Shown here piece by piece: positions 1,155 to 16,541 of a stretch of DNA of 40,863 nt. The notes beneath the pieces are model-generated. The model was not told the origin of the DNA. It made no database searches and saw only the letters and a list, made by a program, of their open reading frames with translations. Position 1 is the first letter of the stretch, and every line of letters starts with the position of its first letter. Made by a program: the position numbers and the translations under genes. The stretch covers positions 1 through 40,863 of the forward strand of contig QWPV01000020.1 in assembly GCA_003671055.1 (NCBI GenBank), written 5' to 3'. The stretch comes from Planctomycetota bacterium (GTDB lineage: Bacteria > Planctomycetota > Phycisphaerae > Phycisphaerales > SM1A02).

Positions 1155-1459
1155 AAATCTAGACTTTGTGCGTGCATCGCACAGCCCAGTGCCTCTCAGC
1201 GTTCAGCAGCGAGCGAATCGCAACGGACCCGTGACATGAGTGCAAGCGAAAATCAGACGCTTTCCATTGAGCAGGTCTTGCAACCAAGTGCACTGGTTGA
1301 GTTTTCGGTGGCGGAGGCGGTTGAGCAGAATGAACTCGTCCGCGTGGAGCGCTCCGCCTTCGAAGCGATGCCGCGCGCATTTTCGCGGCGGAACGGTTTG
1401 GGCTTGAAGACATGGTTCGAGCGACCGACGCGCTCTATCGATGAGCCGTGACACTGTGC

Positions 1460-1475
1460 ACGCGCGATCGCGCGT
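1460..1475. repeat. 16-bp perfect palindrome containing GCGATCGC
   Basis: ACGCGCGATCGCGCGT reads the same on both strands. It lies about 70 bp before the first glycosyltransferase. It could be an operator, or simply an instance of the GCGATCGC octamer that recurs through the window. Confidence 0.5.
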
Positions 1476-1522
1476 CGATAACCACAGCGCAACTTCACGC
1501 TTCGTTCGAATGGTCCAAACTG

Positions 1523-1528
1523 TATGAT
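1523..1528 (+). promoter_or_regulatory. Possible -10 element of the glycan cluster
   Basis: TATGAT matches the sigma-70 -10 consensus at five of six positions and ends 14 nt before the ATG of the first GT4 gene, which has no Shine-Dalgarno. The -35 region is poor. If used, the leader would be only about 7 nt. Confidence 0.35.
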
Positions 1529-1542
1529 GCGCCGCCTCAATC

Positions 1543-2739
1543 ATGCGTGTTCTCCATCTCATCACCACCCTTTCTGTGGGCGGCGCGGAACAGATGCTCG
1601 TCAAGTTACTACGAGCGCTTGATCAGCGCGCGTTCGAGCCAACTGTTGTCACGCTCGTCGATGAAGGACCGCTCATCGAAGTGATTCGATCCATGGGTAT
1701 TCGCGTCGAGACGCTTGGGCTGCAACGCGGCGCGATCAGCGTGCGCGGGTTGGCGCGACTTACCCGCATCATCTCTCGCACGAAGCCGGAACTGATTCAG
1801 TCGTGGATGTACCACGCGAATCTCGCCGCGAGTCTCGCGCGACCTTGGACGCCACGCAAGACGCCCATCATCTGGAACATTCGGCAGTCGCTCTACGAAC
1901 TTTCGCGCGAGCGATTGCTCACTCGCGCAGTCGTGCACTCTGGCAAGTATTTTGCGCCGCATGTAGATGCGATCATCAACAATGCGCACTCAAGCCAACA
2001 GCAGCATGCAGCGATCGGCTATCGCAATGCTCGCAACGTTGTGATCCCCAACGGTTTTGAGATTGATCGTTTCAGACCAGATCCAACAGCGCGCGTGAGT
2101 GTGCGCAGAGAGATTGGAATTCCAGAAGACGCTGTCGTGATCGGGATGGCTGCTCGCATGCATCCACTCAAGGATCATGCGAATTTCCTTCGCGCGTCCA
2201 AGACCGCCTTGCTCGCCGACCCTCGCCTGCACTTCGTTCTCGTTGGTCGCGATACGGACACGCACGCGCTCGTGCTCGATGCTGCATCGAATGGACTTCG
2301 AGGTCGTCTGCATTCACTCGGCGAACGCGCTGACATGCCTCGGGTGTTGAATGCGTTCGATGTGCTCGTCTCCGCGAGTCGCGGCGAAGGCTGCCCCAAC
2401 GTCGTCGGCGAGGCGATGTCGTGTGGAGTTCGCGTCGTGGGCACAAATGTTGGTGACACTGCAAACGTGATTGGCAACTGCGGAGAAGTCGTTGCGCCGG
2501 AGAACTCTGCGTTGCTCGCTGATGCGATGCTTTCCGTCGCAGGGCAGTCTTCAGCAATCGGATTCACGATGAGCGACGCTGCGCGAGAACGCATCCGGAC
2601 GCACTATTCCATTGAGACGATCGCGAAGCAGTACACGGACTTGTGGGAAGGCGCGATTGCCCAGCGTGGCGGAAACCCTCCGACCCGCGACAGCGCGAGT
2701 CCGTTGCCTGAAACGCGTCAAGTGATGCACGCACGCTGA
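1543..2739 (+). CDS. Glycosyltransferase family 4
   Basis: This is a retaining GT-B glycosyltransferase of 398 residues that would add a sugar from a nucleotide donor to a lipid-linked glycan at the cytoplasmic face of the membrane. The N-terminal Rossmann half starts MRVLHLITTLSVGGAEQ, where the GGAE loop is the usual acceptor-side motif. The C-terminal donor half carries the EGCPNVVGEAMSCG segment, the family's EX7E motif, followed by GVRVVGTNVGD. Length is normal for GT4. No ribosome site precedes the ATG, but the following residues are the family's usual N-terminus. It is followed 47 bp later by a second GT4. Donor and acceptor cannot be told from sequence. Confidence 0.88.
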   Translation: MRVLHLITTLSVGGAEQMLVKLLRALDQRAFEPTVVTLVDEGPLIEVIRSMGIRVETLGLQRGAISVRGLARLTRIISRTKPELIQSWMYHANLAASLARPWTPRKTPIIWNIRQSLYELSRERLLTRAVVHSGKYFAPHVDAIINNAHSSQQQHAAIGYRNARNVVIPNGFEIDRFRPDPTARVSVRREIGIPEDAVVIGMAARMHPLKDHANFLRASKTALLADPRLHFVLVGRDTDTHALVLDAASNGLRGRLHSLGERADMPRVLNAFDVLVSASRGEGCPNVVGEAMSCGVRVVGTNVGDTANVIGNCGEVVAPENSALLADAMLSVAGQSSAIGFTMSDAARERIRTHYSIETIAKQYTDLWEGAIAQRGGNPPTRDSASPLPETRQVMHAR

Positions 2740-2774
2740 ACGCCGCGCAACACACCACGCACTCCATTCCGACT

Positions 2775-2780
2775 TACAGT
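2775..2780 (+). promoter_or_regulatory. -10-like TACAGT, leaderless promoter candidate
   Basis: TACAGT ends 6 nt before the ATG of the second GT4 gene. There is no Shine-Dalgarno between it and the start, so transcription would begin at or next to the A of the start codon. Confidence 0.45.
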
Positions 2781-2786
2781 GCATCC

Positions 2787-3938
2787 ATGGCTCGCATCTG
2801 CATCGTCACAGGCATCGGCGACACTGTCGTTCGATTCCGTGGCGCGCTTCTCACTGCACTCGTTCAAGCAGGCCACGAGGTCGTGCTTTCGACGCCGCAT
2901 GGTGAAGAAGTACGCGACGATGCGATCATGCGCGAAGTCCGCGCATGCGGCGCAGAGTGCGTGTTCAGTCCACTGCAACGAACGTCGATCAACCCTCTCA
3001 AGGATCGCGCTGCAATCACGCACTGGCGTGAACTCTTTCGTACGCGCGCGTTTGACGCAGTCCTCGCAGCAAATCCAAAGCCTGTGTTTCACGCGGTTCC
3101 AGCTGCACGCGCTGCTGGCGTTCCGCGCGTCGTCGCGATGATCACCGGCCTTGGATACGCCTTCACCGCGCGTGGCATGAAGCCTTGTGTGCTTCGACTC
3201 ATCGCCTCGCATCTCTACGCTCGTGCGCTTCACGATGCAGACTGCGTGCTGTTCCAAAATCAAGATGATCGCTGCGCGCTCGCGGCGCGTGGTGTTCGAA
3301 TTGCCGATGCGAAGTGCCTCGCCATTGGTGGCTCTGGCGTTGATCTTGGTCACTTCGCGCAACGACCTCTTCCACAAGGTGCGCCGATCGTCCTCATGGT
3401 CGCGCGACTGCTTCGAGACAAAGGCGTGAGAGAATTCGCGCACGCGGCGCGCATCGTTCGCGCAGCTCGACCTGACGTGCGCTTCCGACTTGTCGGTTGG
3501 ATCGACTCCAATCCAAGCGCAATCGCGCGCGCCGAACTTGATGGCTGGGTGCGCGAAGGCATCATTGAGTACGGCGGTCGGCTCGATGACGTTCGCGATG
3601 AACTCGCACAGTGCTCCATCTTCGCATTGCCGTCGTATCGCGAAGGGACGCCGATGAGTGTTCTCGAAGCACTCGCTGTCGGTCGGCCAATCGTGTCGAC
3701 CGATGTCCCTGGCTGCCGCGAGACCGTGTGCAGCGACGGCGGCGGCAACGGCGTGCTCGTTCCCGCGCAAAACGCCGAAGCACTCGCCGACGCGCTGCTC
3801 TCGCTGCTTGCGACGTCGACCGAACACCGCGCCGCAATGGGCAACGCAAGTCGCGCACTCGCCCAATCCCGCTTCGACGCGGACCTCGTGAATGCGATCA
3901 TCTTTCGCGCGCTGCAGATCTCAGCAAGAAGTGCATAA
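2787..3938 (+). CDS. Glycosyltransferase family 4, PglA-like
   Basis: A 383-residue GT-B enzyme. The order of segments follows Campylobacter PglA, which adds GalNAc to undecaprenyl-diphospho-bacillosamine: an RFRGALLTAL segment near the start, TSINPLKD, ITGLGYAF, the hinge segment IVLMVARLLRDKGVREF, and FALPSYREGTPMSVLEALA with the EX7E glutamates. This likeness is from memory of the family and was not aligned. A PglE-like aminotransferase lies three genes downstream, which makes a bacillosamine-type glycan plausible, but no PglC, PglD or PglF is in view. The gene has its own candidate leaderless promoter. Calling it GT4 is safe; the precise acceptor is inference. Confidence 0.85.
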   Translation: MARICIVTGIGDTVVRFRGALLTALVQAGHEVVLSTPHGEEVRDDAIMREVRACGAECVFSPLQRTSINPLKDRAAITHWRELFRTRAFDAVLAANPKPVFHAVPAARAAGVPRVVAMITGLGYAFTARGMKPCVLRLIASHLYARALHDADCVLFQNQDDRCALAARGVRIADAKCLAIGGSGVDLGHFAQRPLPQGAPIVLMVARLLRDKGVREFAHAARIVRAARPDVRFRLVGWIDSNPSAIARAELDGWVREGIIEYGGRLDDVRDELAQCSIFALPSYREGTPMSVLEALAVGRPIVSTDVPGCRETVCSDGGGNGVLVPAQNAEALADALLSLLATSTEHRAAMGNASRALAQSRFDADLVNAIIFRALQISARSA

Positions 3939-3950
3939 TCCACGCACCGC

Positions 3951-5240
3951 ATGATCGTTGATCGTTCCGCTTCCCGACCGCCAGCGTGGCCACCGACTTC
4001 GGAGGCCTTGCTCGTCTACGAACAACTGCGCCGAGGAATGCTTCGCGATCGCTTTGGACATTGGGTACAGACATTGCTCGCGTGTCTCTTCGCGTTCGCA
4101 GGCGCACTCGATCATGCGCCGCTCAACATTGCCACGGTGATGCTCGTCACATGCTTCGTCATTCGACTCCACGCATCGTGGCGCGCGATGCCAACGCTGC
4201 TGCGTGTTCCCGCGCTGCTCCCCTGCGCGCTGCTGACGCTCTGGATGCTGCTTGGCCTTGCGTGGACCTCTGGTGACGCGACAGCAATCCATGACCTCAC
4301 GATGTTGCGATGGATAGTGATCCTTCCTGCGCTCTGGCCGGTGCTTGATCACGCGCGCGAAATCGCGATCGCCTTCATCCTCGGCACAATGGTGCAGAAC
4401 GGCGCGCAGTTTCTTCAACTCGCCGAATACATTCCGCGCCCCGACGGCAACTATTGGCGCTACTCGGGGTTCATCAATCATCCTGGCGACTCTGCGCTCC
4501 GAAGCGCAATGAGCATCGTGCTCGCACTCGCGCTCGCATCCTCTACTCGAGGCACTGCGCGAGGACTCTTCCTTCTCGCATCGTGCATTGCCCTCACTGG
4601 TGTCTTCATCGCCGCAGGTCGAGGACAAATTCTCGCACTCGCGTTCGCAATTCCACTCCTTCTGCTGCTGCTGCGTCGGGGTGGCTTTCTCACCGTCCGC
4701 GCGATGTGGGTCAGTGTCGCTGCGCTGATCCTCACCGCACTTGTCGCACTTCCCACCGTCGGACGCGCGTCACTGCGCTACTTTGAAGATGTGCCGGAGC
4801 AACTCAGCAGCGCCGCGACCGGCGATGACTCGTCCTCTTCGATCGGCGTTCGAGTCGCATGGTGGAAAGACGCGAGCGCACTCTGGCTCAAACACCCAAT
4901 CGTTGGCGCTGGAATTGGAAGCTACGCATCGGAATCGCAAGCGAACAACCCTGACACCGCATCGCACACTTCGCATCCACACAACATGTACATCGGCATG
5001 TTGTGCGAAGGCGGACTCGTTGGCCTTGCGTTGCTCGCGTGGATGCTGAGCGCGTTGCTCAGGGTCGGCGCGAGAAATGCGAAGCACAGTTCGCTCGCGT
5101 GCGGCGCGGTTGCCGCAATTGTTGTATTGCTCGCATCTGGCATGACAAGCGATCCGCAATATCGCGAGATGGATGTGTCCAGCGCGATGATCATGGTCGC
5201 GCTCGGATGTCTTCCATGGGTTCGAGGCTGGAGATCCTGA
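3951..5240 (+). CDS. O-antigen ligase/polymerase family membrane protein (Wzy/WaaL type)
   Basis: A 429-residue polytopic membrane protein with many hydrophobic segments. The large periplasmic loop ends in the conserved pattern HPIVGAGIGSY ... SHPHNMYIGMLCEGGLVGLALL. The HNxY...E.G..G pattern is the Wzy_C signature of enzymes that polymerise undecaprenyl-linked repeat units or ligate finished glycan to an acceptor. It sits 12 bp after the PglA-like gene, and the next gene starts 1 bp after its stop, so the three are probably co-transcribed. CATAAT at 3934-3939 is a possible extra -10 element. Polymerase and ligase cannot be separated from sequence alone. Confidence 0.85.
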   Translation: MIVDRSASRPPAWPPTSEALLVYEQLRRGMLRDRFGHWVQTLLACLFAFAGALDHAPLNIATVMLVTCFVIRLHASWRAMPTLLRVPALLPCALLTLWMLLGLAWTSGDATAIHDLTMLRWIVILPALWPVLDHAREIAIAFILGTMVQNGAQFLQLAEYIPRPDGNYWRYSGFINHPGDSALRSAMSIVLALALASSTRGTARGLFLLASCIALTGVFIAAGRGQILALAFAIPLLLLLLRRGGFLTVRAMWVSVAALILTALVALPTVGRASLRYFEDVPEQLSSAATGDDSSSSIGVRVAWWKDASALWLKHPIVGAGIGSYASESQANNPDTASHTSHPHNMYIGMLCEGGLVGLALLAWMLSALLRVGARNAKHSSLACGAVAAIVVLLASGMTSDPQYREMDVSSAMIMVALGCLPWVRGWRS

Positions 5241-5241
5241 T

Positions 5242-7239
5242 ATGTGTGGACTCGCAGGATTCATCGATCCCGAAGGACGGTTGCGCGAACCGACGCGCGT
5301 ACTCGAGTCGATGGCGCGCTGCCTCATGCATCGCGGCCCAGATGATGAAGGCGCGCACTTCGATGAGTCCACGCGCGTTGGTCTTTCGTTTCGTCGGCTC
5401 GCGATCATCGACATCACCTCCACTGGCCATCAACCAATGCGCTCCGCGAGTGGGCGATTCGAAATCGTCTTCAACGGCGAGTGCTACGGCCATCACGCGC
5501 TGCGTCGCGAACTCACGCAGAGCGGCGCGCAGTTTCGCGGAACCAGTGATACGGAAACGCTGCTTGCTGCCTTTGAAGCGTGGGGCATTGACGCAACGCT
5601 TCCGCGACTCGAAGGCATGTTCGCGTGCGCGGTGCTGGATCGATCGAAACGCGAACTCACGCTCATCCGCGATCGCTTCGGCGTGAAGCCGATGTATTAC
5701 GCGTTTGCTGGTGGTCGCGAAGTTCCGCTCGGCGATTTCAAGAACCCTGTGGGTGCAACACTCGCGTTTGCATCGGAAATCAAAGCACTTCGCGCACTGC
5801 CAGGCATGTCGCTCACCGTCGATCGCAATGCGCTCGCGCTGTACCTGCGTCATGGCTATGTGCCAGGTCCGCTCACCATTCACGCGGAAGTTCGGAAGTT
5901 ACTTCCAGGACATCTCCTTCGATACAACCTCGACGAGCGTCACGGTTCGTGTATGCGTTGGTTCAGTTCGCGGGACATGGTTGAGCACGGCGCGCGCAAT
6001 CCATTTCGCGGAAGTGACGCCGACGCGGTGGAAGCGGTCGATCGCGCGCTACTCGAGAGTGTGCGACTTCGGATGGAAAGCGATGTGCCGCTCGGTGCGT
6101 TCCTCTCTGGCGGCACAGATTCCACTGCGGTGGTTGCGGCGATGCAATCGCTCTCAACGCAACGTGTGAAGACGTACACGATCGGCTTCGAAGGTGCGGA
6201 CTACGACGAGTCTCCGTTCGCGCGGAAGATCGCGCAGCACCTTGGCACCGAACACACTGAACGCATCGTGACGGCCGAAGAAGCGAGAGCAGTGATTCCA
6301 CGCATTCCAGAAATATGGGATGAGCCCTTCGCGGATTCATCACAGATTCCCACACTGCTTGTGAGTGAAACCGCCCGTCAAGGTGTCACTGTTGCACTCA
6401 GCGGCGATGGTGGCGATGAACTCTTCGGTGGCTACTACCGATACGCGTGGACAGAACGCATCGCGCAGCAGAACGCGCGCGTGCCACTTCCGCTTCGACA
6501 CGTTGCCGCCTATCTCCTGCGCGCGGCGCCAAGACGCGTGGGAAACGCGATCGGTCGCGCAGTCGCAGCCGCACTTCCCGCTCGACTGCAGATGGATCGC
6601 GCGGGCGATCGTGCGCACAAACTCGCTGCACTCCTCAAGCATCGCGATGGATGGAATCTCTATCTTGATCTCGTTGCGACGGATCGAGACAGTCTCGCGC
6701 TCGTGCCTGGCGCAACGCTTCCTCGCACACCACTCACAGATCCAACCGCGCTCGCTGACCCTACGATCGTCACCGACCTCTGCGCGCGCATGATGCAGGC
6801 GGACATCGTGAGTTACCTCGTCGATGACATTCTCGTCAAGGTCGATCGCGCGAGCATGTCGGCTTCTCTTGAAGCACGCGAACCGTTGCTCGACTCCAAG
6901 CTCGCACGACTCGCCTTCTCGCTTCCTTCATCGATGCGCATTCGCAACGGCGAGCGCAAGTGGATACTCAAGGAAGTCGTCGCTCGTCGCGTTCCCCGCG
7001 CGCTCACCGACCGACCGAAAATGGGTTTCGGTGTTCCGCTCGGTTCATGGCTTCGCGGACCGCTGAAGCCTTGGGCAGAATCGCTGCTTCTCGGCGAAGA
7101 TGTCGCGCGCGACGACCTCCTCGATGCAGCGCAAGTTCGGCTGCGATGGCAGCGTTTCCTCCGCGCCCGCGACGAGGGCTACGACCTCTGGAGCATTCTC
7201 ATGTTCCGAGCGTGGTCCGAATCTTGGAAATGCCGATAG
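5242..7239 (+). CDS. asnB: Asparagine synthase (glutamine-hydrolysing)
   Basis: A complete two-domain enzyme of 665 residues. The N-terminal glutaminase domain begins MCGLAGFID, so Cys2 is the nucleophile once Met is removed, and shows the RGPDDEG and FNGECYGH segments. The C-terminal synthetase domain has the PP-loop SGGTDS at residues 289-294, then YDESPFARKIAQHLGTEH, IWDEPFADSSQIPT and SGDGGDELFGGYYRY. The start is fixed by the catalytic Cys2 and by a GGAG 8 nt upstream (5230-5233). The glutaminase domain carries a small insertion (GREVPLGDFKNPVG) just before the normal LAFASEIKALR. Two divergent AsnB paralogues in one glycan locus suggest that at least one amidates a glycan component such as a uronic acid; that is inference. 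Confidence 0.93.
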   Translation: MCGLAGFIDPEGRLREPTRVLESMARCLMHRGPDDEGAHFDESTRVGLSFRRLAIIDITSTGHQPMRSASGRFEIVFNGECYGHHALRRELTQSGAQFRGTSDTETLLAAFEAWGIDATLPRLEGMFACAVLDRSKRELTLIRDRFGVKPMYYAFAGGREVPLGDFKNPVGATLAFASEIKALRALPGMSLTVDRNALALYLRHGYVPGPLTIHAEVRKLLPGHLLRYNLDERHGSCMRWFSSRDMVEHGARNPFRGSDADAVEAVDRALLESVRLRMESDVPLGAFLSGGTDSTAVVAAMQSLSTQRVKTYTIGFEGADYDESPFARKIAQHLGTEHTERIVTAEEARAVIPRIPEIWDEPFADSSQIPTLLVSETARQGVTVALSGDGGDELFGGYYRYAWTERIAQQNARVPLPLRHVAAYLLRAAPRRVGNAIGRAVAAALPARLQMDRAGDRAHKLAALLKHRDGWNLYLDLVATDRDSLALVPGATLPRTPLTDPTALADPTIVTDLCARMMQADIVSYLVDDILVKVDRASMSASLEAREPLLDSKLARLAFSLPSSMRIRNGERKWILKEVVARRVPRALTDRPKMGFGVPLGSWLRGPLKPWAESLLLGEDVARDDLLDAAQVRLRWQRFLRARDEGYDLWSILMFRAWSESWKCR

Positions 7240-7265
7240 AACCTGGGCAGAGAGTGCTTCTCTCT

Positions 7266-8486
7266 ATGCAGTCTCCAGTCGTACTCGCCATGCACCCAAC
7301 GCCCTTCCATTCTTCCAACGACGCACCGCCGATCTTCCTCTCGCCGCCGCATATGACAGGCGACGAGCAACTCTTCATCGATGAAGCGTTCCGCACAAAT
7401 TGGATCGCGCCACTCGGACCCAATGTCGATGCGTTTGAGCGCGAGTTCGGCGAAACACTTCACGCGCTCCCCTGCTGCGCGACTTCTTCTGGCACCGCTG
7501 CAATCCATCTCGGGCTCTCGCTGTTAGGGGTTGGCGCCGGCGACTTCGTCCTCTGCTCAAGTTTCACATTCGTTGCGAGCGCGAATCCGATTCGACTACT
7601 TGGTGCTGAGCCTGTGTTCGTCGATAGCGAACCAGATTCATGGAACATGTCGCCGAGTGCATTGCGACGCGCACTTGAAATACTCTCCTCCGCTGGCAAG
7701 AAACCGAAAGCAGTCCTCGTCGTCAATCTCTATGGACAGAGTGCGGACTACGGTTCGATTCGCCCAATCTGTGATGAATGGAATGTTCCGATTCTCGAAG
7801 ACGCCGCGGAAAGTCTCGGTGCAAGTTGCCTCGGAAATCCGAGCGGCACATTCGGCGATGTTGCAGCATTCAGTTTCAACGGCAACAAGATCATCACGAC
7901 CTCTGGTGGCGGAATGCTCGCCGCACCGTCCGCTGCGCAGATCACTCGCGCGCGCTTTCTCGCTACTCAGGCACGCGAAGTCGCGCCGCACTACGAGCAT
8001 CGCGAAGCGGGCTTCAACTATCGCATGTCCAACATCCTCGCTGGGGTTGGACGCGCACAACTTCGCGCGCTCGGCAGTCGTGTGGCTGCGCGTCGCGAAG
8101 TCTTCGCACGCTACGCCGACGCACTCGGCTCGATTCCTGGCGTGCGCTTCATGCCCGAACCATCATGGAGCCACTCGACGCGTTGGCTCACCGCGCTCAC
8201 CATCGATGCACGACTCGCGGGAACCACGCGCGACGCCGTACTCAGCGCGCTTACTGCACAACGCATCGAAGCACGCCCGACATGGAAGCCCATGCACCTG
8301 CAACCGCTCTTCGCAGGATGCGACTTCTTCCCGCACGAAAGCGGCGGCGCGACGCGCGACATCTCTGCACGACTCTTTGCGGACGGGCTTTGTCTTCCGA
8401 GCGGAAGCAGCTTGACTGTGACGCAACAACATCGCGTGATCACCGCCATCACCGAAGTGCTCTGCGGCAACCGCGTGCAACTCTGA
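7266..8486 (+). CDS. PglE-like PLP-dependent sugar aminotransferase (DegT/DnrJ/EryC1/StrS family)
   Basis: It converts a UDP-4-keto-6-deoxy sugar to the 4-amino sugar using PLP and glutamate. The resemblance to Campylobacter PglE is close over the whole length: FLSPPHMTGDEQ, NWIAPLGPNVD, FTFVASANPIRLLGAEPVF, DAAESLGA, then FNGNKIITTSGGGML with the PLP-binding lysine near residue 208, ATQAREVAPHYEH, and late RPTWKPMHLQPLF and LCLPSGSS. The frame is open back into asnB. I chose the ATG at 7266 because AGAGAG precedes it by 9 nt and it still leaves a normal-length protein (406 aa). An ATG at 7230, overlapping asnB, and one at 7290 are alternatives. It points to a bacillosamine-like aminosugar in the product of this locus. 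Confidence 0.88.
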   Translation: MQSPVVLAMHPTPFHSSNDAPPIFLSPPHMTGDEQLFIDEAFRTNWIAPLGPNVDAFEREFGETLHALPCCATSSGTAAIHLGLSLLGVGAGDFVLCSSFTFVASANPIRLLGAEPVFVDSEPDSWNMSPSALRRALEILSSAGKKPKAVLVVNLYGQSADYGSIRPICDEWNVPILEDAAESLGASCLGNPSGTFGDVAAFSFNGNKIITTSGGGMLAAPSAAQITRARFLATQAREVAPHYEHREAGFNYRMSNILAGVGRAQLRALGSRVAARREVFARYADALGSIPGVRFMPEPSWSHSTRWLTALTIDARLAGTTRDAVLSALTAQRIEARPTWKPMHLQPLFAGCDFFPHESGGATRDISARLFADGLCLPSGSSLTVTQQHRVITAITEVLCGNRVQL

Positions 8487-8522
8487 TCATGCCTGATCGT
8501 GCCTGATCATGGCCTGATCGCG
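8484..8522 (+). repeat. Short tandem repeat, unit TGATCrTGCC
   Basis: Three units of 10-11 bp (TGATCATGCC, TGATCGTGCC, TGATCATGGCC) and a partial fourth begin at the aminotransferase stop codon and run up to the candidate -10 box of the epimerase gene. They fill almost the whole gap between the two genes. Confidence 0.8.
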
Positions 8523-8528
8523 TAAACT
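8523..8528 (+). promoter_or_regulatory. -10-like TAAACT, near-leaderless promoter candidate
   Basis: TAAACT ends 9 nt before the epimerase ATG, which has no Shine-Dalgarno. The -35 region would fall inside the tandem repeat and does not match TTGACA. Confidence 0.4.
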
Positions 8529-8537
8529 TGCCGCCCC

Positions 8538-9545
8538 ATGGCGATCCTTGTCACCGGCGCAGCAGGTTTCATCGGCTCTCACGTCGCGCAGCGTTTGCTC
8601 GCCCGCGGCGAGACCGTTGTCGGACTCGACAACGTCAACGATTACTACGACCCGCGCATCAAAGAAGCGCGTCTTGTGAAACTCGTCGCGCAGCCGAACT
8701 TCTCCTTCCTCCGCATGGACATCGCGGATCGCTCTGCGATGGAAGCGATTTTCGCGCAGCATCGTTTCGAGCGCGTGGTACATCTTGCTGCGCAAGCGGG
8801 CGTTCGCTACTCGATCACGAATCCGCACGCATACGTGCATTCCAACATCGTGGGCTTTCAAAACATTCTTGAAGGCTGCCGCGCAGTGGAATGCCAGCAC
8901 TTGGTCTACGCGAGTTCGAGTTCCGTCTATGGCGGCAACGCGAAACTGCCGTTCTCTGTGCATGACAATGTGGATCACCCGCTTTCGCTCTATGCGGCAA
9001 GTAAGAAGGCGAACGAACTCTTCGCCCACGCGTATTCCAATCTCTTTGCGCTCCCTACTACAGGCCTCCGTTTCTTCACCGTATATGGACCGTGGGGTCG
9101 ACCAGACATGGCGCTGTTCTTGTTCACGAAGAACATTCTCGAAGGGAAACCGATTGATGTTTTCAATCACGGCAAGCATCGCCGCGACTTCACCTACATC
9201 GATGACATCGTCGAAGGCATCGTGCGCACACTCGATCGCCCCGCAACTGCGCATCCTGACTTCGACGCGATGCAGCCTGATCCAGGCACATCGAGCGTGC
9301 CGTGGCGTGTGTACAACATCGGCAATTCTCGCCCAGTCGACTTGCTCGACTACATCGGCGCCGTCGAGAAGTGTGTGGATCGCAAAGCAATCATGAATTT
9401 ATTGCCGCTTCAGCAGGGCGATGTGCCTGACACGATGGCGGATGTACAAGCGCTCGAGCAAGACATGGGCTATCGACCCGCCACCACTGTTGAAGTTGGT
9501 GTTGCGCGATTCGTCGCGTGGTACCGCGAGTACTACAAGATCTGA
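8538..9545 (+). CDS. UDP-glucuronate 4-epimerase (extended SDR family)
   Basis: It interconverts UDP-glucuronate and UDP-galacturonate with bound NAD, giving galacturonate for surface polysaccharide. The 335-residue protein starts [14 protein letters not shown] with the GxxGxxG nucleotide motif. It continues with [30 protein letters not shown], the SSSSVYGG serine region and YAASKKAN with the catalytic Tyr152/Lys156 pair. [15 protein letters not shown] and the C-terminal [16 protein letters not shown] are characteristic of the UDP-glucuronate branch (CapI/LpsL type) rather than GalE. Length is typical. It lies at the end of the glycan locus and supplies a uronic acid that the neighbouring AsnB-like enzymes could amidate; that link is speculative. 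Confidence 0.92.
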
Positions 9546-9571
9546 CATGCGTGAGAGCGTGGCGCTACGCT
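9542..9571 (+). promoter_or_regulatory. Promoter of the GH57 gene, leaderless type
   Basis: CTGACA (9542-9547, five of six to TTGACA), an 18-nt spacer and TACGCT (9566-9571). The -10 box ends 7 nt before the ATG, and there is no Shine-Dalgarno. The -35 box overlaps the stop codon of the epimerase gene. Confidence 0.55.
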
Positions 9572-9578
9572 GCCGTCT

Positions 9579-10799
9579 ATGGCAAGCGTCTGTTTCTACT
9601 TTCAATTGCATCAGCCGTGGCGATTGCGCCGCTACTCCGTCTTCGCGAACGATCCGTTTTACTTCGACGATGCGGCGAACGAACAGATCCTGCGCAAGGT
9701 TGCGGACAAGTGCTATCGACCAACCACACTGAAGATGCTCGACCTCGTGAAGCGTCACGATCGTCGCTTCCGTTGCTCCTACTCCATCACGTGCACCGCG
9801 CTCGAACAACTGCAGCGCTGGGCGCCTGATGTCGTCGACACATTGAAGGAGCTCGTCGACACCGGTGCGTGCGAACTCATCGGCGAGACCAGCCATCACT
9901 CGCCTTCGTTTCTCTTTTCGAAGAAGGAGTTCGACGCGCAAGTCACCGTGCATCAACAGAAGATGCAGGAAGTCTTCGGCGTCGTGCCAAAGATTTTCCG
10001 CAACACGGAACTCATCTACTCGAACGAACTCGCGCATCACATCGCCGCGCGCGGGCAACATAAGGCGATCATCTGCGAGGGCGTCGATCGATTGCTCGGC
10101 TTCCGCTCGCCCAACTACATCTACGTTCCGCCTGCAAGCGAAACGGATAGCGGTCCGATTGAGGATCGTCGTGTGAAGTTGCTGCTGAAGAACTACCGCC
10201 TCAGCGACGACATCGCGTTCCGATTTTCTAATCGCGCGTGGAAGGAATGGCCTCTCAGCGCCGAGCGATTCGCAGAGTGGGTCAACCAAATCAACGGCGA
10301 CGGATTCACCTGCAATCTCTTCATGGATTACGAAACCTTCGGCGAGCACCAATGGGCCGACACAGGAATTTTCCAATTCCTCGACGCGCTCCCCAAGGCC
10401 GTCTACGACATCAATCCAGGACACAATCAATTCCTCACGCCCTCGCAAGTGCTCGAATGCTCTGATCCAGTCGGCGAATACGACGCACCAAACTGGACCT
10501 CCTGGGCAGACACCGAACGCGATCTCTCCGCGTGGCTAGGCAACCCACTCCAAGACAACGCCGCAGCCGAGCTCTACCGCCTCGAAGAACCAGTACGAGA
10601 ACGCCACGCCGCCGGCGACCCCTACATCCTCGAAGACTGGCGCAAGCTCACCACCAGCGACCACCTCTACTACATGTGCACAAAGTACTGGGCCGACGGC
10701 GACGTCCACAAATACTTCTCCCCCTACAACTCGCCCTACGACGCGTACATCAACTTCATGAACGTCCTAGACAACCTGAAAATCCGCGCGGGCGCGTGA
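9579..10799 (+). CDS. Glycoside hydrolase family 57 (alpha-amylase type)
   Basis: A 406-residue GH57 enzyme acting on alpha-1,4-glucans with retention of configuration, probably in the cytoplasm since no signal peptide is present. The first conserved region is YFQLHQPWRL. The nucleophile region FRNTELIY puts the catalytic glutamate at Glu144, and FMDYETFGEHQW offers Asp250 as acid/base. By recollection these correspond to Glu145 and Asp237 of the Methanocaldococcus jannaschii GH57 amylase. Length matches the compact alpha-amylase subgroup without extra C-terminal domains. It probably works in storage-glucan turnover rather than glycan export. The gene converges with the GT2 gene, with 6 bp between the stops and no visible terminator. 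Confidence 0.9.
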   Translation: MASVCFYFQLHQPWRLRRYSVFANDPFYFDDAANEQILRKVADKCYRPTTLKMLDLVKRHDRRFRCSYSITCTALEQLQRWAPDVVDTLKELVDTGACELIGETSHHSPSFLFSKKEFDAQVTVHQQKMQEVFGVVPKIFRNTELIYSNELAHHIAARGQHKAIICEGVDRLLGFRSPNYIYVPPASETDSGPIEDRRVKLLLKNYRLSDDIAFRFSNRAWKEWPLSAERFAEWVNQINGDGFTCNLFMDYETFGEHQWADTGIFQFLDALPKAVYDINPGHNQFLTPSQVLECSDPVGEYDAPNWTSWADTERDLSAWLGNPLQDNAAAELYRLEEPVRERHAAGDPYILEDWRKLTTSDHLYYMCTKYWADGDVHKYFSPYNSPYDAYINFMNVLDNLKIRAGA

Positions 10800-10805
10800 T
10801 TGCAA

Positions 10806-11585
10806 TCAGTCTCTACGAATTGCGCCAGCGGAGGGTGGTGGTGCTTGTCCGTCTTCGATGCGCTTGGCGTACTTCAGGAATGTTTGGAGGAAGTATGCGG
10901 CGGCGATGAAGAAGCCGGCGCGGCCGTCGAGGAATCCGCGCTTGAGGATGAGGTGTTTGAAAAATTGCAGGCCGCCGTGGGTGAGTCCGCGCAGGATGCC
11001 TTTGCGGTTGCCGACTTTTGCGGTGCCTAGTGACGAGTAACGATTTGCCTTGTGCACCATCTGCGCGATGTTGGTGAAGGGAAATTGCCAGATGTCTGCG
11101 GGTAGCGTGCGAACTTGCGCACCTGCTGCGGGGATCCATCCTTCATGCACGGGCAAGAGGTCGTAGGTCATTGCGCCGCGGCGGAAGAATTGCGGTTGGC
11201 GGAAATTTGGATACCAACCGCTGTGGCGAATCCATTGACCGAGGAACCAATTTCGTCGTGGGATATTCCAGATCGATGCGCTGGCGGGATCCGAGGCGAT
11301 GCGCAGCATTGCGTCGCGTGCTTCGGGCGTGCAGCGTTCGTCTGCATCGAGCGAGAAAATCCAGTCGCCTGTCATGTGCGTGAGTGCGGCGTTGCGAAGT
11401 TTGCCGAATCCTTCAAAGGGCACTTGCACCACGCGTGCACCAAGCGCGGTCGCTGCTTCTGCTGTTCCATCGGTCGATCCTGAATCGACAAGGACAATCT
11501 CATCACACCACAGCACGGTCGACACTGCGTCGACGATTTTTTCGCGCTCGTTGTAGGCAAGGATGAAACAGCTGATCTTTGACAT
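10806..11585 (-). CDS. Glycosyltransferase family 2 (WaaE/KdtX-like)
   Basis: A 259-residue GT-A enzyme. The N-terminus MSKISCFILAYNEREKI and DEIVLVDSGSTDGT bind the nucleotide sugar, and SLDADERCTPEA holds the DxD metal site. RNWFLGQWIRHSGWYPNFRQPQFF, then VHEGW and GGLQFFKHLILKRGFLDGRAGF, are typical of the WaaE-like LPS-core beta-glucosyltransferases. A hydrophobic C-terminal stretch probably associates with the membrane. No ribosome site is visible. It begins 18 bp after the stop of a broken pyrE and is last in a - strand run with a flippase-like gene. Family assignment is firm; substrate is unknown. Confidence 0.9.
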   Translation of the reverse strand: MSKISCFILAYNEREKIVDAVSTVLWCDEIVLVDSGSTDGTAEAATALGARVVQVPFEGFGKLRNAALTHMTGDWIFSLDADERCTPEARDAMLRIASDPASASIWNIPRRNWFLGQWIRHSGWYPNFRQPQFFRRGAMTYDLLPVHEGWIPAAGAQVRTLPADIWQFPFTNIAQMVHKANRYSSLGTAKVGNRKGILRGLTHGGLQFFKHLILKRGFLDGRAGFFIAAAYFLQTFLKYAKRIEDGQAPPPSAGAIRRD

Positions 11586-11603
11586 CGGAGTGCTTTGCTC
11601 GGC

Positions 11604-11801
11604 TCACGCAATCACGCCGAGTCGCGCCAAGATTGCTGGGTCGGTCGAGAAGAGATACTTATCGAGATAGAACGTCGACTTGCGCCCGCTGCACAGTGTG
11701 AAATTTCCGCGCAACAGACTCGCTGCTACGATCCGAATGGCGAGCTCTTCACGAGAAATCGTGAGTGCTGCCTCGCGGTCAAGTGTCGTAGAAGTGGACA
11801 T
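11604..11801 (-). pseudogene. pyrE: pyrE remnant: first ~62 residues of orotate phosphoribosyltransferase
   Basis: The 65-codon frame reads like the N-terminus of a normal orotate phosphoribosyltransferase: SREELAIRIVAASLLRGNF, then TLCSGRKSTFYLDKYLFSTD and PAILARLG. It then stops after VIA. Full-length OPRT runs to roughly 180-220 residues and needs the PRPP-binding motif with two acidic residues, which is absent. The next gene starts only 18 bp beyond the stop, and I find no continuation in another frame in that gap. The fragment therefore cannot make orotidylate. Its own start and -10 box (TATGAT, 7 nt upstream) are intact, so it may still be transcribed and translated as a short peptide. 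An intact pyrE is expected elsewhere in the genome. A misassembly at this junction is the main alternative. Confidence 0.75.
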
Positions 11802-11808
11802 ACGGCTG

Positions 11809-11814
11809 ATCATA
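11809..11814 (-). promoter_or_regulatory. -10-like TATGAT, leaderless promoter of the pyrE remnant
   Basis: TATGAT ends 7 nt before the ATG of the pyrE fragment and overlaps the stop codon of the flippase-like gene. It probably now drives the GT2 gene behind the remnant. Confidence 0.5.
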
Positions 11815-12736
11815 CGGTTTCTGTTGGAGGCACTGGCGGCGCGCTTCGATGATGTCGCGCAAGCAGGAATGCGCCGAGGATTCCCGATGGAATCACGACC
11901 ACCAACTCCGCCGTTCGATTGACAAGTTCCGCGACGATGCCTGCTTCCATCGACACGCCCGCGAGGACTGGCGCAAGAAGCCCAACCACCCATTCGCGAA
12001 GTCCCAATCCGTTGGAGATGAATGGCACGAGTGTCGCGAGGCAACTCGCGGTCGCCAGCACAAGCGCGCTCTCGTATGGCACAGGTGATCCAATCAATCT
12101 GAACGCGCACCAATATCGAAGTGCCCACAGAAAAACTTCTGCGCTGCGAATCACAAAGCCGAGCGCGAGCGTGCGCCCGATCGGAAGAAATCTTCCCGCG
12201 AGTGCGAGGAGCGGCGAGAAGAACACGAGTTCGGAAGGGAGATTGAGCGCTTGGCACGCCCAGAGCAAGAGCACTGCACTGAGCGCTGCAGCGAGCGTGA
12301 GTCCCATCGCTTCGAGGACGGTGCGCAGCGACTGCACCGGCGCGATGCCATGACGCACCTTGTGATACGCGATACGCCCGAGGAGTCCGGGCTTGAGCGG
12401 AAGATAGTTCGCGAGCGTGGTCGAAGCGATGAGCGCTTGCATTTCCCACAGCGGTACGCGCGCGAATCTCGCGATCAAAATGTGGAACAACAATCCTGTC
12501 AGTGTGATCCCCGCCAACACACAGCCGAGCATGAGCGCAACGGTCTCGGGTGGAGGATCGCGAAGTTTTTCGAATGCCTCGCCAAGTTGCGCGCGTTCAC
12601 TAATCGCGAAGACCACGGCGGTCGCCATCAAGAGCAAGCCAAGCACGAGGCCGATCGGTCGCGCGAGGCGACGCACTTTCGGATCGTGGATCAACCGTTC
12701 GATGGGACGCATCACGAGCATGATGCGGGATTTCAC
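11810..12736 (-). CDS. Flippase-like integral membrane protein (lysylphosphatidylglycerol synthase TM-domain family)
   Basis: A 308-residue polytopic membrane protein with about eight hydrophobic segments. It resembles the membrane part of MprF-type lysylphosphatidylglycerol synthases (UPF0104), which flips or carries lipids. Diagnostic features are ANYLPLKPGLLGRIAYHKVRHG after the second segment, and late VPFISNGLGLREWVVGLL followed by ELVNRTAELVVVIPSG. There is no C-terminal aminoacyl-transferase domain, so it is not a complete MprF. The start codon overlaps the stop of the upstream 873-aa gene (ATGA), implying translational coupling. Together with the GT2 two genes on, it may move or build a glycolipid; that is inference. 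Confidence 0.82.
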   Translation of the reverse strand: MKSRIMLVMRPIERLIHDPKVRRLARPIGLVLGLLLMATAVVFAISERAQLGEAFEKLRDPPPETVALMLGCVLAGITLTGLLFHILIARFARVPLWEMQALIASTTLANYLPLKPGLLGRIAYHKVRHGIAPVQSLRTVLEAMGLTLAAALSAVLLLWACQALNLPSELVFFSPLLALAGRFLPIGRTLALGFVIRSAEVFLWALRYWCAFRLIGSPVPYESALVLATASCLATLVPFISNGLGLREWVVGLLAPVLAGVSMEAGIVAELVNRTAELVVVIPSGILGAFLLARHHRSAPPVPPTETV

Positions 12737-15354
12737 TTGGAAATGTTGAGCTCGTCGCGACGCTCTTCCACCACCGACTGCCCATGCGCCTGTGCAGCGC
12801 GCGCGAATGCTTGCGCTTGAGTTGGTCCGTCGCGCAGCGTGACTTCGATCAAGCCAACATCGGGTGTTTCAGGCTGCACCGCGAGTCGAGCGATGCGCAC
12901 GAGCGGATCGGGGTTCGCGTCGAGCACTGCATAGAACGCTGCGAGATTCTCGCGCTTAGCTGGTACGCATGATGCAACCCATGCCGCTTCAAGTGGCGTG
13001 AGCCTCGCAACCGCCGTGGTGAGCGCGAGCGCTACGGGCTCGAGTGCGCTTTGCGTTTCTACGGAGAGCGAATCTTTGCGCAGTTCAAGTCGTGCGAGTG
13101 CGCACGCGAGATATGCAATCGTGACGGGCGAAGGAGACTTCGAAGGATCGGAAATCTCCTTGATCGCACGAGTGACCCATGCGCTACTCAAACGCATGCC
13201 TTCGATACGCACCGTGTCCGATTCCACCTCAATTCCAAGTGGTCCTGGCTCCATGCCTTGCTGTGTCGTGCGCCAATTGAGAATGCCGTGCACATTCGCG
13301 AATCCACCGACCGTTGGATCGAGTTTGAATTGACGCGTGCCGTCACCGATGCTCGCGTCGTAGGTTACGGTCATCGCTTCACCCGACGCCAGAGCCAATC
13401 GACTCGTCAGCGCGACAGCTTCATACGGCGGAATTCGCACCGACTGTTGTCCCGCCATACTCACGGTGCACGCTGCTGTTGCAGTGTCGCGGAGCGGACC
13501 ATTGGGCGTGATCGTGATCGGCCATTCGCCGCGGTTGGTGATGACGAAATCAAATTGCACCGGCTCAAACATGTTCAGCTTCGAAACTCTTGGCTGAACA
13601 GTGAGGAGCAGCGCATCCGCAGGATTCTCGATGAGGCTTCGAAAACTCTCGGGAATAACTGCTTGCGCATCGAGTTGTGGCGCGAGAGGAAACAGTTGCG
13701 GCTTCGAGCCAAGCAACCTCCACAGTGACTCTCGCGCGTAGAGACCAACAGCACTCGCAGGCTGCGACTGCGCGATCGCGAGATACATCGGCGCCGCGTC
13801 ACGGACTCGTCCTTGCGCTTCAAGCACCATCGCGAGTCCGAGCTTTGACGCTACATCGTTCGACGCAAGTGGCGCGAACAGACCCTCCGCTTTCGCAAGG
13901 TCGCCCGCGCGAAATGCGAACCATCCATCGAATCGTGCCTGCGCATCCGCGGAGAGTGGACTCAATTGCTTCGCAACGATCAGCGCGGCGGACGCCGTCT
14001 CCACCTTGCCGCCGAGCCAGAGTGCGACGAATGCACGTTCTACCGAAACCGCAGCGATGGACTGCGGCGAAAGCTTCACCTCGGCCGCTGCATCGGCACC
14101 AATTTTGAACGCAAGGTCGGCGTTGTCCACGACCACATCTGCGCCAGGAAGTCGACGCGAGACGAGCATCGCAGCAACGTTCGTGATGAGCGCGGGCGCG
14201 GGTGGAAGTTGCAGTGCGCGCCTTCGCTCTGCGCTAATCAGCGCACCCTTCTTGATAACTTCCGAACGCAGTGCGATATCAAGTTCCTGTTGCCGACGGA
14301 CGAACACCGCCGACGCAGCGGTCGTTTGCTCGGTCCCCCAAAATGCGAGGACGAGATCCGCGAGCAATGTGTCGTACTCAATACTCGGCCGCGCCGTGTG
14401 TAAGACCGCGCATTCCACTTCGAGTACGTTCACGGCACCTTGATATGCGCCATTGTCGAGGCACAGTTGCGCGAGTGCGAGCATCGCTATTGCATCAGAG
14501 GGATTCGCGAGCGCGGCTGCGCGAAGCAATCCCGCTTCCTCGATCGGACTCACTCGAAGACGGAAATAGCCAGCGGCTTCATTTGCTGCATCGGGAAACC
14601 ATGGATCGAGTCGCGTGGATTCGAGCAGCCATTTCTCATATCCATCAAGATCGCCCGTGCGCTTGGCGAGCGTCGCTAACTCAAACACCAATCGCGATGC
14701 AACACGTGGTCCGATCTGCGCGATCGATTCAGGCGTGAGGAGTTGCAGCATTGTGGCGATGCGCCCTTCCGCTGTTTGACTCTCCGCGATCACGTCAACC
14801 AATCGACGCAAACGCACGCCTTCATCTGAAGGATCGAGTCGACTGAGTGCTTGCAACGCATCCTTCCCGAGTTTCTTGCCGAGCGGATCCCCCTCTTCAA
14901 GAACAGAGCCGAGATCAAGCGCGGTACGCCAAATGTCTTCGTTGTTGGGCGCGAGAATGACTGCCTGTTGCACAAGCTCACGCGCGGCATCGAGTGATCC
15001 GATGAAGACCTGCTGACGCTGAAGGTATTGGCGCGCCGACTGAGCGAAGTACCGTGCGAGACTGTCGCGAAACTGTTCTTCCGTAAAGATCGGATCGGCA
15101 ATCAGCTCCTCGCTCGGAGCAACTTGGACATCAGGGCTCTGGGAAGCAGGAGTCTCGCCTGGCGGATCCTGAGCCATCAGAGGCATTGTGAGACCCGCCA
15201 GTGCGAGCGCTACGTAGCCGGCGCACATCGAACCGCTCATGAACGGGCGAGGCGTGCGTGGCACGGCCAGGCAAGAAGCGTCAAAACGTGACCGTCTTGC
15301 GCCTGCAAGAGCGGAATTGGCGCTGCGTGGGGACTCGGTCGGTTGTGCGTTCAT
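12733..15354 (-). CDS. Large exported TPR-like protein of unknown function
   Basis: I recognise no specific family. The 873-residue frame contains a good signal sequence that starts at residue 39 (MSGSMCAGYVALALAGLTMP, cleavage likely after LMA). The true start is therefore probably the ATG at 15240; the longer form is kept because nothing rules it out. The mature region from about 90 to 530 is helical and alanine/leucine-rich, with TPR-like stretches such as AVILAPNNEDIWRTAL, ALANPSDAIAMLALAQL and FAPLASNDVASKLGLAMVL. Residues from about 560 on look beta-rich (FEPVQFDFVITNRGEWPITI, like an Ig-type fold). It overlaps the flippase-like gene by 4 bp. Probable role: periplasmic or surface scaffold. 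Confidence 0.75.
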   Translation of the reverse strand: MNAQPTESPRSANSALAGARRSRFDASCLAVPRTPRPFMSGSMCAGYVALALAGLTMPLMAQDPPGETPASQSPDVQVAPSEELIADPIFTEEQFRDSLARYFAQSARQYLQRQQVFIGSLDAARELVQQAVILAPNNEDIWRTALDLGSVLEEGDPLGKKLGKDALQALSRLDPSDEGVRLRRLVDVIAESQTAEGRIATMLQLLTPESIAQIGPRVASRLVFELATLAKRTGDLDGYEKWLLESTRLDPWFPDAANEAAGYFRLRVSPIEEAGLLRAAALANPSDAIAMLALAQLCLDNGAYQGAVNVLEVECAVLHTARPSIEYDTLLADLVLAFWGTEQTTAASAVFVRRQQELDIALRSEVIKKGALISAERRRALQLPPAPALITNVAAMLVSRRLPGADVVVDNADLAFKIGADAAAEVKLSPQSIAAVSVERAFVALWLGGKVETASAALIVAKQLSPLSADAQARFDGWFAFRAGDLAKAEGLFAPLASNDVASKLGLAMVLEAQGRVRDAAPMYLAIAQSQPASAVGLYARESLWRLLGSKPQLFPLAPQLDAQAVIPESFRSLIENPADALLLTVQPRVSKLNMFEPVQFDFVITNRGEWPITITPNGPLRDTATAACTVSMAGQQSVRIPPYEAVALTSRLALASGEAMTVTYDASIGDGTRQFKLDPTVGGFANVHGILNWRTTQQGMEPGPLGIEVESDTVRIEGMRLSSAWVTRAIKEISDPSKSPSPVTIAYLACALARLELRKDSLSVETQSALEPVALALTTAVARLTPLEAAWVASCVPAKRENLAAFYAVLDANPDPLVRIARLAVQPETPDVGLIEVTLRDGPTQAQAFARAAQAHGQSVVEERRDELNISK

Positions 15355-15389
15355 CTGTGCGACAAGATCGGCTCAATCACCGACTGCAA

Positions 15390-15418
15390 TTGACAGTATG
15401 CGCCATGGGAAGTAGCGT
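15390..15418 (+). promoter_or_regulatory. Sigma-70-like promoter
   Basis: A perfect TTGACA (15390-15395), a 17-nt spacer and TAGCGT (15413-15418, three of six to TATAAT). It points at the secreted 356-aa protein with a leader of about 45 nt, in the gap between divergent genes. Confidence 0.45.
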
Positions 15419-15470
15419 TACACGCTCGAACTTGCGCTTTCCGCTGCCGGTTCTGCCCAACGAATCTCCC

Positions 15471-16541
15471 ATGCGCTGCTTCCGCCCGTTCGCCGCCGTT
15501 CTTCTCTCCGCATCCGCACTTTTCGGCGCGTCGCAAGCCTGCGCCCAATCGCCAAATGCGTCGACCTCACTCGATCAATCGATCATTGCGAGTAGCGCCG
15601 TCCTCACTGAGGCCCAGAAGACTGCGATCAAGGCATTCGCCCAGACGCAGGTGCAGCTGCTTGCGACCGCGAACGATCAAGCGGAACTTGAATCGGCTCG
15701 ACGAATCCTGACCGACGCCCCACGCGACCCCGCAGCCACTGCAATTTTCCGCCGTGGCTACTCCACCGTGCTGATTCCTCTGCTCACGCCTGTGGCGAGC
15801 GGCACCGATCTTCGACGTGCAATCTTCGCGATGCAAGCGCTGCGATTCCTTCGCTCGAATGAAGCAGTCGATGCGCTGCTCAACCGCGCGTCCCTGGCCA
15901 CGGAGAAGGACGGAGCGCGCCGCCTCGTCGCTGCTGGACTTGCTGCTGATCTCCTCTCTGATGCAGATCTCTCGCCGATTCAAATGGAAGCGATCGCGAA
16001 GCGCCTCGGGATTTGCGCGCTCGCCGAGACCGACTCGTTTGCGCTTCAGCAACAACTCGAAGGATTCAACGCGCTGCTGAAGCGCTCGCAATTGCCTGCA
16101 GATACAGCGAAAACGGTGCGCAAGTCTGAGTTCGAAGCAATCGCTTTGCTTGCATCTTCCATCGCGCAGCAACCGAATGCCGATGCACGCATGAACGCTG
16201 TCTACCGCGCGCTCATCAGCGTGCGCAATCAATGGGTGGAGATGCCGACCGCTGAGAAGACCGCCGCCGCGCCGCAACTCGCACGAGGGTTGGTCGATCT
16301 CTTGAAGGCCTCCGACAAGCAGTGGACAAGTGTGCGTGCGAATGCGAATCTGTCGCCGAGCTACGCAGGCATGTGCAACAGCGCCGAAGTGCTGCTTCGG
16401 CTCGTCGATCGCTCAATGCGTCCCAATGCACCGCGCTCCACCGACGACCGCGTGCTCCCCAAGACCTGGGAAAGCGCCGACAAAGCCGCCTTCACCGCCG
16501 AAGTGAAGCGCTGGTCCGATGCTGTCGCGACGTACAAGTAA
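15471..16541 (+). CDS. Secreted helical protein of unknown function
   Basis: No family recognised. The frame is open further upstream, but the ATG used here gives a clean signal peptide (MRCFRPFAAVLLSASALFGA, then SQACA before the cut) and lies downstream of the candidate promoter. An in-frame ATG at 15405 would put 22 extra residues ahead of that signal. The mature part of about 330 residues is almost entirely helical and alanine-rich. A repeat-like middle (FAMQALRFLRSNEAVDALLNRA) resembles HEAT or armadillo-type solenoids. No cysteine motifs or catalytic signature stand out. It is divergent from the 873-aa exported protein and 56 bp ahead of the substrate-binding protein gene, which has its own start signal. 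Confidence 0.72.
   Translation: MRCFRPFAAVLLSASALFGASQACAQSPNASTSLDQSIIASSAVLTEAQKTAIKAFAQTQVQLLATANDQAELESARRILTDAPRDPAATAIFRRGYSTVLIPLLTPVASGTDLRRAIFAMQALRFLRSNEAVDALLNRASLATEKDGARRLVAAGLAADLLSDADLSPIQMEAIAKRLGICALAETDSFALQQQLEGFNALLKRSQLPADTAKTVRKSEFEAIALLASSIAQQPNADARMNAVYRALISVRNQWVEMPTAEKTAAAPQLARGLVDLLKASDKQWTSVRANANLSPSYAGMCNSAEVLLRLVDRSMRPNAPRSTDDRVLPKTWESADKAAFTAEVKRWSDAVATYK

Follow-up and report, generated by a model that had tools for sequence, protein, structure and literature searches.

We found that the window, a stretch of 40,863 nucleotides from an uncultured, probably lake-dwelling planctomycete, carries a pyrE gene reduced to 69 codons. The explanation we favour, to which we assign a probability of about 80%, is that this remnant is a pseudogene produced by one in-frame internal deletion, that it represents one of two independent losses of pyrE, and that the host most likely lives on pyrimidines taken up from outside. 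The two losses occur among only four genomes of one genus: that of the window (G000), the congeners G001 and G002, and the congener G003, in which pyrE is intact. Repeated loss of pyrE within a single Phycisphaerales genus, with a presumed reliance on scavenged pyrimidines, is thus the best reading of the data, and suggests that this group repeatedly gives up its own pyrimidine synthesis. A deletion of this type is an event of a known and ordinary kind; what is unusual is the occurrence of two independent in-frame internal deletions in the same gene within one genus.

The pyrE remnant and its probable deletion joint

In the window, pyrE is the third gene, and not the head, of a tight run composed of a gene for a protein of 873 residues, a flippase-like gene, pyrE and a glycosyltransferase family 2 (GT2) gene (Table 1). 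The stop codon of the flippase gene and the start codon of pyrE overlap as ATGA. Counted from this overlapping ATG the remnant comprises 69 codons, and from a second ATG at 11801 it comprises 65; its translation is MISRMSTSTTLDREAALTISREELAIRIVAASLLRGNFTLCSGRKSTFYLDKYLFSTDPAILARLGVIA (open reading frame from 11813 down to 11604, minus strand). Residues 32-64 of this product match profile positions 8-40 of the 173 in the OPRT model TIGR00336 with an E-value of 1.7e-5, although the score of 24.6 bits does not reach the curated cut-off of 106.8. A match to TIGR01367 (E = 0.0019) is also far below the cut-off of that model, and a Pfam search of the remnant returned no match at E ≤ 1.

Relative to an OPRT of the PyrE type (TIGR00336), the remnant shares the N-terminal 66 codons and presumably the last few, but it is approximately 123 codons shorter than the G003 gene, and the PRPP loop is among the part that was lost. 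This loop, which is VTIVEDVATTGG in G003 PyrE, is missing from the remnant translation, and a product that lacks it should be inactive as an OPRT. The first-pass annotation had described pyrE as truncated, devoid of the PRPP motif and ending 18 nt ahead of the GT2 gene, and all three observations hold, with the GT2 start at 11585. The stop codon that it considered new instead corresponds, in the alignment to G003, to the C-terminus and stop codon of pyrE itself, with the reading frame kept.

Table 1. Positions of features in the pyrE gene run and in the facing plus-strand run of the window.
Feature	Position	Strand	Basis
Gene at the head of the run, 873 aa, overlaps the flippase start	12733..15354	-	no Pfam or NCBIfam match
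Upstream flippase-like membrane protein, LPG_synthase_TM (PF03706), intact	11810..12736	-	Pfam
pyrE remnant, 69 codons versus 192 in intact congener G003	11604..11813	-	translation, TIGR00336 match, G003 comparison
Two possible remnant starts, ATG 11813-11811 (in the ATGA overlap) and ATG 11801-11799	11799..11813	-	
Putative deletion joint, CTCGGC (codons 65-66, Leu-Gly), then V-I-A and stop	11607..11621	-	codon listing, alignment to G003
Downstream glycosyltransferase family 2 (PF00535), intact, final gene of the run	10806..11585	-	Pfam
Asparagine synthase	5242	+	Pfam
Epimerase	8538	+	Pfam
GH57	9579	+	Pfam

The window joint reads ...GCG CGA CTC GGC GTG ATT GCG TGA. In G003, the string CTCGG occurs at both of the sites that match the joint, namely at codons 65-66 (codons 63-67 read ...GCG AGG CTC GGA GAG...) and near the C-terminus, where the gene ends ...CGC GAC CTC GGT GTT GCG CCC TGA. 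From this comparison, the remnant is best read as pyrE codons 1-66 (...ARLG) fused in frame, at the common CTCGG, to the native final codons of the gene, the parent sequence of the window's downstream half being presumed to resemble that of G003. A single deletion within pyrE, about 369 bp long (123 codons, with G003 as the yardstick), would account for this structure while leaving the frame and the two gene ends undisturbed, and its probable route is slippage between two copies of CTCGG(C) encoding Leu-Gly. No direct repeat of at least 9 nt was listed at the joint, and a tRNA scan of the whole window, the base composition of positions 9000-15500 and the repeats gave nothing bearing on the deletion.

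Since pyrE was already the third gene in a tight run, a deletion lying wholly within it would have moved no promoter and no gene, and because the deletion is in frame, translation would not be cut off early ahead of GT2. We regard it as a probable ordinary loss-of-function deletion, most likely tolerated because pyrimidines can be scavenged.

Intact and deleted pyrE in relatives

We surveyed 61 genomes, consisting of the window's own genome and 60 relatives, using the remnant as the query (E ≤ 0.001). Matches were obtained in 53 of the 61, at one place in each. Over 66 residues, the remnant is 82% identical to G003 and 85% identical to G001, while identities in the other 50 matching genomes range from 44 to 69%. 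Comparison with relatives, as proposed in the first-pass annotation, did uncover an intact pyrE between flippase-like and GT2 genes: G003 encodes a protein of 192 residues that scores 133.3 bits against TIGR00336 (cut-off 106.8) and lies between the same flippase and GT2. This intact ortholog at the same place is one of our grounds for calling the remnant a pseudogene. The window and G003 are collinear over about 8 kb, from the epimerase gene (8.5 kb) to a gene at 15.3-16.5 kb, with only partial coverage at the ends of the G003 stretch, where the epimerase gene and a gene from 16.3 kb lie. A homolog of the 873-residue gene sits at the same place in G003, and the window flippase is 76-80% identical to those of the three congeners.

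Each of the 28 loci L004-L031, one of which is that of G003, has an open frame aligning to at least residue 190 of G003 PyrE; in the remaining matching genomes pyrE was judged by open-frame length only. In G001 the contig ends within pyrE at codon 98 (L003 1-296, minus strand, G001:C39), either by chance or through strain variation at the gene, and GT2 was not found in this genome at E ≤ 1e-10.

Eight genomes gave no match to the remnant (G019, G027, G030, G035, G058, G002, G017 and G026). The first five carry remote OPRTs that were recovered by a search with the G003 protein and that score over NCBIfam cut-offs, whereas G017 and G026 (72% and 80% complete) yielded only weak matches to the G003 protein. 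The genomes with these remote OPRTs (L042-L046) have no match to the N-terminal part of the common pyrE, which looks as though replacement of pyrE had happened more than once in the order.

The congener G002 also failed to match the window remnant in this survey, yet it has a frame of 49 codons between flippase and GT2 genes, MSTSTTLDRNSALPSVAAIDRMGGTRKTIEGAGLRWNGMSAVRDLGVAP (L047 1498-1647, minus strand, G002:C1). This frame consists of the first approximately 13 codons of pyrE, counted from the second ATG, joined to the last approximately 34, with breakpoints that differ from those of the window, and by itself it matches no NCBIfam family. Its neighbours are well conserved, the flippase and GT2 of G002 being 78% and 86% identical to those of the window. 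As the window and G002 remnants each keep codons that the other has lost, neither derives from the other and the two losses are independent.

The two remnants also differ in their state of preservation. The last 34 residues of the G002 remnant are identical to G003 at 19 positions, while in the same part 28 intact orthologs from other genera are identical to G003 at 21-29 of 32-34 positions (29 rows, as L018 and L039 are one genome; the remote OPRTs L042-L046 and two G003 rows were left out). Over these 34 codons, dN/dS between the G002 remnant and G003 is 0.24, whereas the flippase genes of these two genomes give 0.076. Because its 19 of 34 identities fall below those of all 28 intact orthologs compared and its dN/dS is raised relative to the flippase, we conclude that the G002 remnant has decayed. 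In the window remnant, dN/dS to G001 is 0.066 versus 0.061 between G001 and G003, values that are to be read with synonymous sites near saturation, and fully saturated to G003. Within residues 18-66 (49 positions), the window remnant matches G003 at 43 and G001 at 44, and G001 and G003 match each other at 47. The window remnant thus appears uneroded, and may be either young or still constrained.

Continued constraint would be expected if selection kept the remnant as a small relay cistron that hands ribosomes on from flippase to GT2 by translational coupling, in which case deletions would persist only when in frame. The low dN/dS of the window remnant, the frame kept in both deletions, the ATGA shared with the flippase gene and the stop-to-GT2 gap, which is 18 nt in both the window and G002 compared with 30 nt in G003, are all consistent with such a role. 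We nevertheless give it only a small chance, given that chance alone would leave two deletions both in frame in one case out of nine, that in G002 the ATG of the overlap and that of the remnant are out of register by a 1-bp shift, and that the C-terminal part of the G002 remnant has eroded at the protein level. The broader proposal that the genus loses pyrE time and again, and exclusively through internal deletions that preserve the frame, with the two ends of the cistron required as a ribosome relay between flippase and GT2 and the enzyme dispensable, we likewise consider unlikely. For a pseudogene, which we prefer, the frame may have been kept by chance, with the same odds of 1 in 9, or since loss of frame would be detrimental to the GT2 gene that follows, in which case avoidance of polarity would be the reason for the kept frame. 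In the E. coli K-12 rph-pyrE operon, damage to one gene affects the next through translation and transcription links (PMC2784333); in that operon pyrE lies downstream and is the gene that is harmed, whereas in the window the damage is in pyrE itself and its frame is kept.

We also considered whether the deletion could be an assembly artefact or the product of a strain mixture, in which the population has an intact pyrE whose middle was dropped from the consensus. The window comes from a draft assembly of 100 contigs, the G001 contig breaks inside pyrE and the window remnant is not eroded, each of which is compatible with such an error. However, the joint shares only 5-6 bases, and usual assembly word lengths are far above this. 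The reading frame is preserved at the joint, the neighbouring genes are collinear with G003, and G002 has a different and eroded deletion. On balance we judge an artefact or mixture to be quite improbable, and a genuine deletion remains our preferred reading.

Search for another OPRT and pyrimidine metabolism

The first-pass annotation had also pointed to a second, complete pyrE as something to look for elsewhere in the genome. The assembly G000 comprises 100 contigs and is 95.77% complete with 1.15% contamination, which leaves about 4% estimated to be missing. Within it, no second complete pyrE or other OPRT was found with the remnant, the family model or the full G003 protein as queries. TIGR00336 identified six places, none over its cut-off, which correspond to the remnant, APRT, a ComF-like protein, PRPP synthetase, HPRT and Upp; the ComF-like protein, at 59 bits, is below the ComF cut-off. 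With full-length G003 PyrE as the query, G000 gave just two places, the remnant and APRT, and G002 gave its remnant plus two weak places (E-values of 0.01 and 0.09).

Other steps of the pathway are present. Aspartate carbamoyltransferase (pyrB) scored over cut-off in all eight genomes tested, G000 included, and all eight have a DHO_dh-family match, which in G000 and G002 is a true PyrD according to NCBIfam. We identified pyrF with TIGR02127 in seven of the eight genomes, among them G000, and found it missing only in G002; the alternative model TIGR01740 describes a type of pyrF that does not suit these bacteria, with weak matches in 3 of 61 genomes and none over cut-off. G002 is also without two neighbours of pyrF, a solute-binding protein and a CinA-like protein, named by eye. 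We had considered the absence of pyrF from G002 as support for auxotrophy and dropped it, as these two flanking genes are also missing and an unbinned contig is an equally likely cause.

The retention of pyrB, pyrD and pyrF in G000 is odd for an old auxotroph. It would be expected if pyrE had been replaced by an OPRT that we did not recognise, and five relatives do use remote OPRTs in place of the usual pyrE. Yet no candidate in G000 is over cut-off, and the search with the G003 protein would have caught an OPRT of the same remoteness as in those five genomes, which makes a replacement of this kind very doubtful. We retain the loss of the pyrE step, and the window organism is most likely a pyrimidine auxotroph.

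Genes for the use of external pyrimidines are found in G000, which has upp, with Upp over cut-off. In both G000 and G002, PreA and dihydropyrimidinase genes are clustered and are over cut-off (L128 3889-7514 and L129 4044-7693, respectively). An oxidoreductase frame precedes PreA in this pyrimidine-degradation cluster, and a scan of L128 returned no match to the PreT model. At L129 there is, in addition, a nitrilase-like frame of 296 residues that is below all cut-offs.

Lake Phycisphaerae with reduced genomes have been described by Andrei et al. 2019 (PMC6461901), whose section 10 attributes to the lake family Nemodlikiaceae the uptake of nucleosides, the degradation of pyrimidines and auxotrophy for several amino acids. 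The genus studied here, which need not belong to that family, resembles these bacteria in small genomes and pyrimidine degradation. The main text of that paper does not mention pyrE, and its section 10 names no pyrimidine auxotrophy. Among the literature matches listed, no title concerned pyrE loss in Planctomycetes, and a paper on gene expression in S. aureus (PMC12880543) has no bearing on the deletion.

If real, these events offer a snapshot of the parallel loss of one pyrimidine step in one planctomycete genus at three stages, with one species intact, one freshly cut, and one cut and eroded. The predicted need for uracil could aid cultivation, and the two in-frame deletions would allow a test of whether dead cistrons in tight operons stay in frame as a protection for the next gene.

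Gene order around pyrE

GT2 orthologs lie directly behind pyrE in G003 and directly behind the pyrE remnant in G002, the only two of the 37 loci searched (the window not included) in which GT2 adjoins pyrE. The first-pass annotation had invoked a deletion or insertion that newly placed the glycosyltransferase behind a pyrE promoter, with the remnant acting as an upstream reading frame. A deletion does appear to underlie the truncation, but it is internal to the gene by comparison with G003, and the proposed new junction with the glycosyltransferase is contradicted by the order flippase-pyrE-GT2 around the intact G003 gene. Promoter capture is, despite the short open reading frame and the 18-nt gap ahead of GT2, highly improbable, as GT2 already follows an intact pyrE in G003 and another remnant in G002, pyrE does not head its run, and the supposed TATGAT promoter box is the stop/start overlap of flippase and pyrE. 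This overlap is present in G003 and G002 as well, and a scan for promoters of the sigma-70-like type across positions 10750-12900 found 0 sites versus 0.4 expected.

Other associations of pyrE were noted in the course of this comparison. Of the 27 loci from other genera (L005-L031), 15 have a flippase homolog (LPG_synthase_TM) in the vicinity of pyrE, in differing arrangements, the neighbourhood covered being about 1.5 kb on each side where the contig allows. On the plus strand of the window, the pyrE run is faced by a run at positions 84-10799 that looks like a polysaccharide cluster; along with the plus-strand genes in Table 1, it contains frames that by eye are glycosyltransferase-like and DegT-like.
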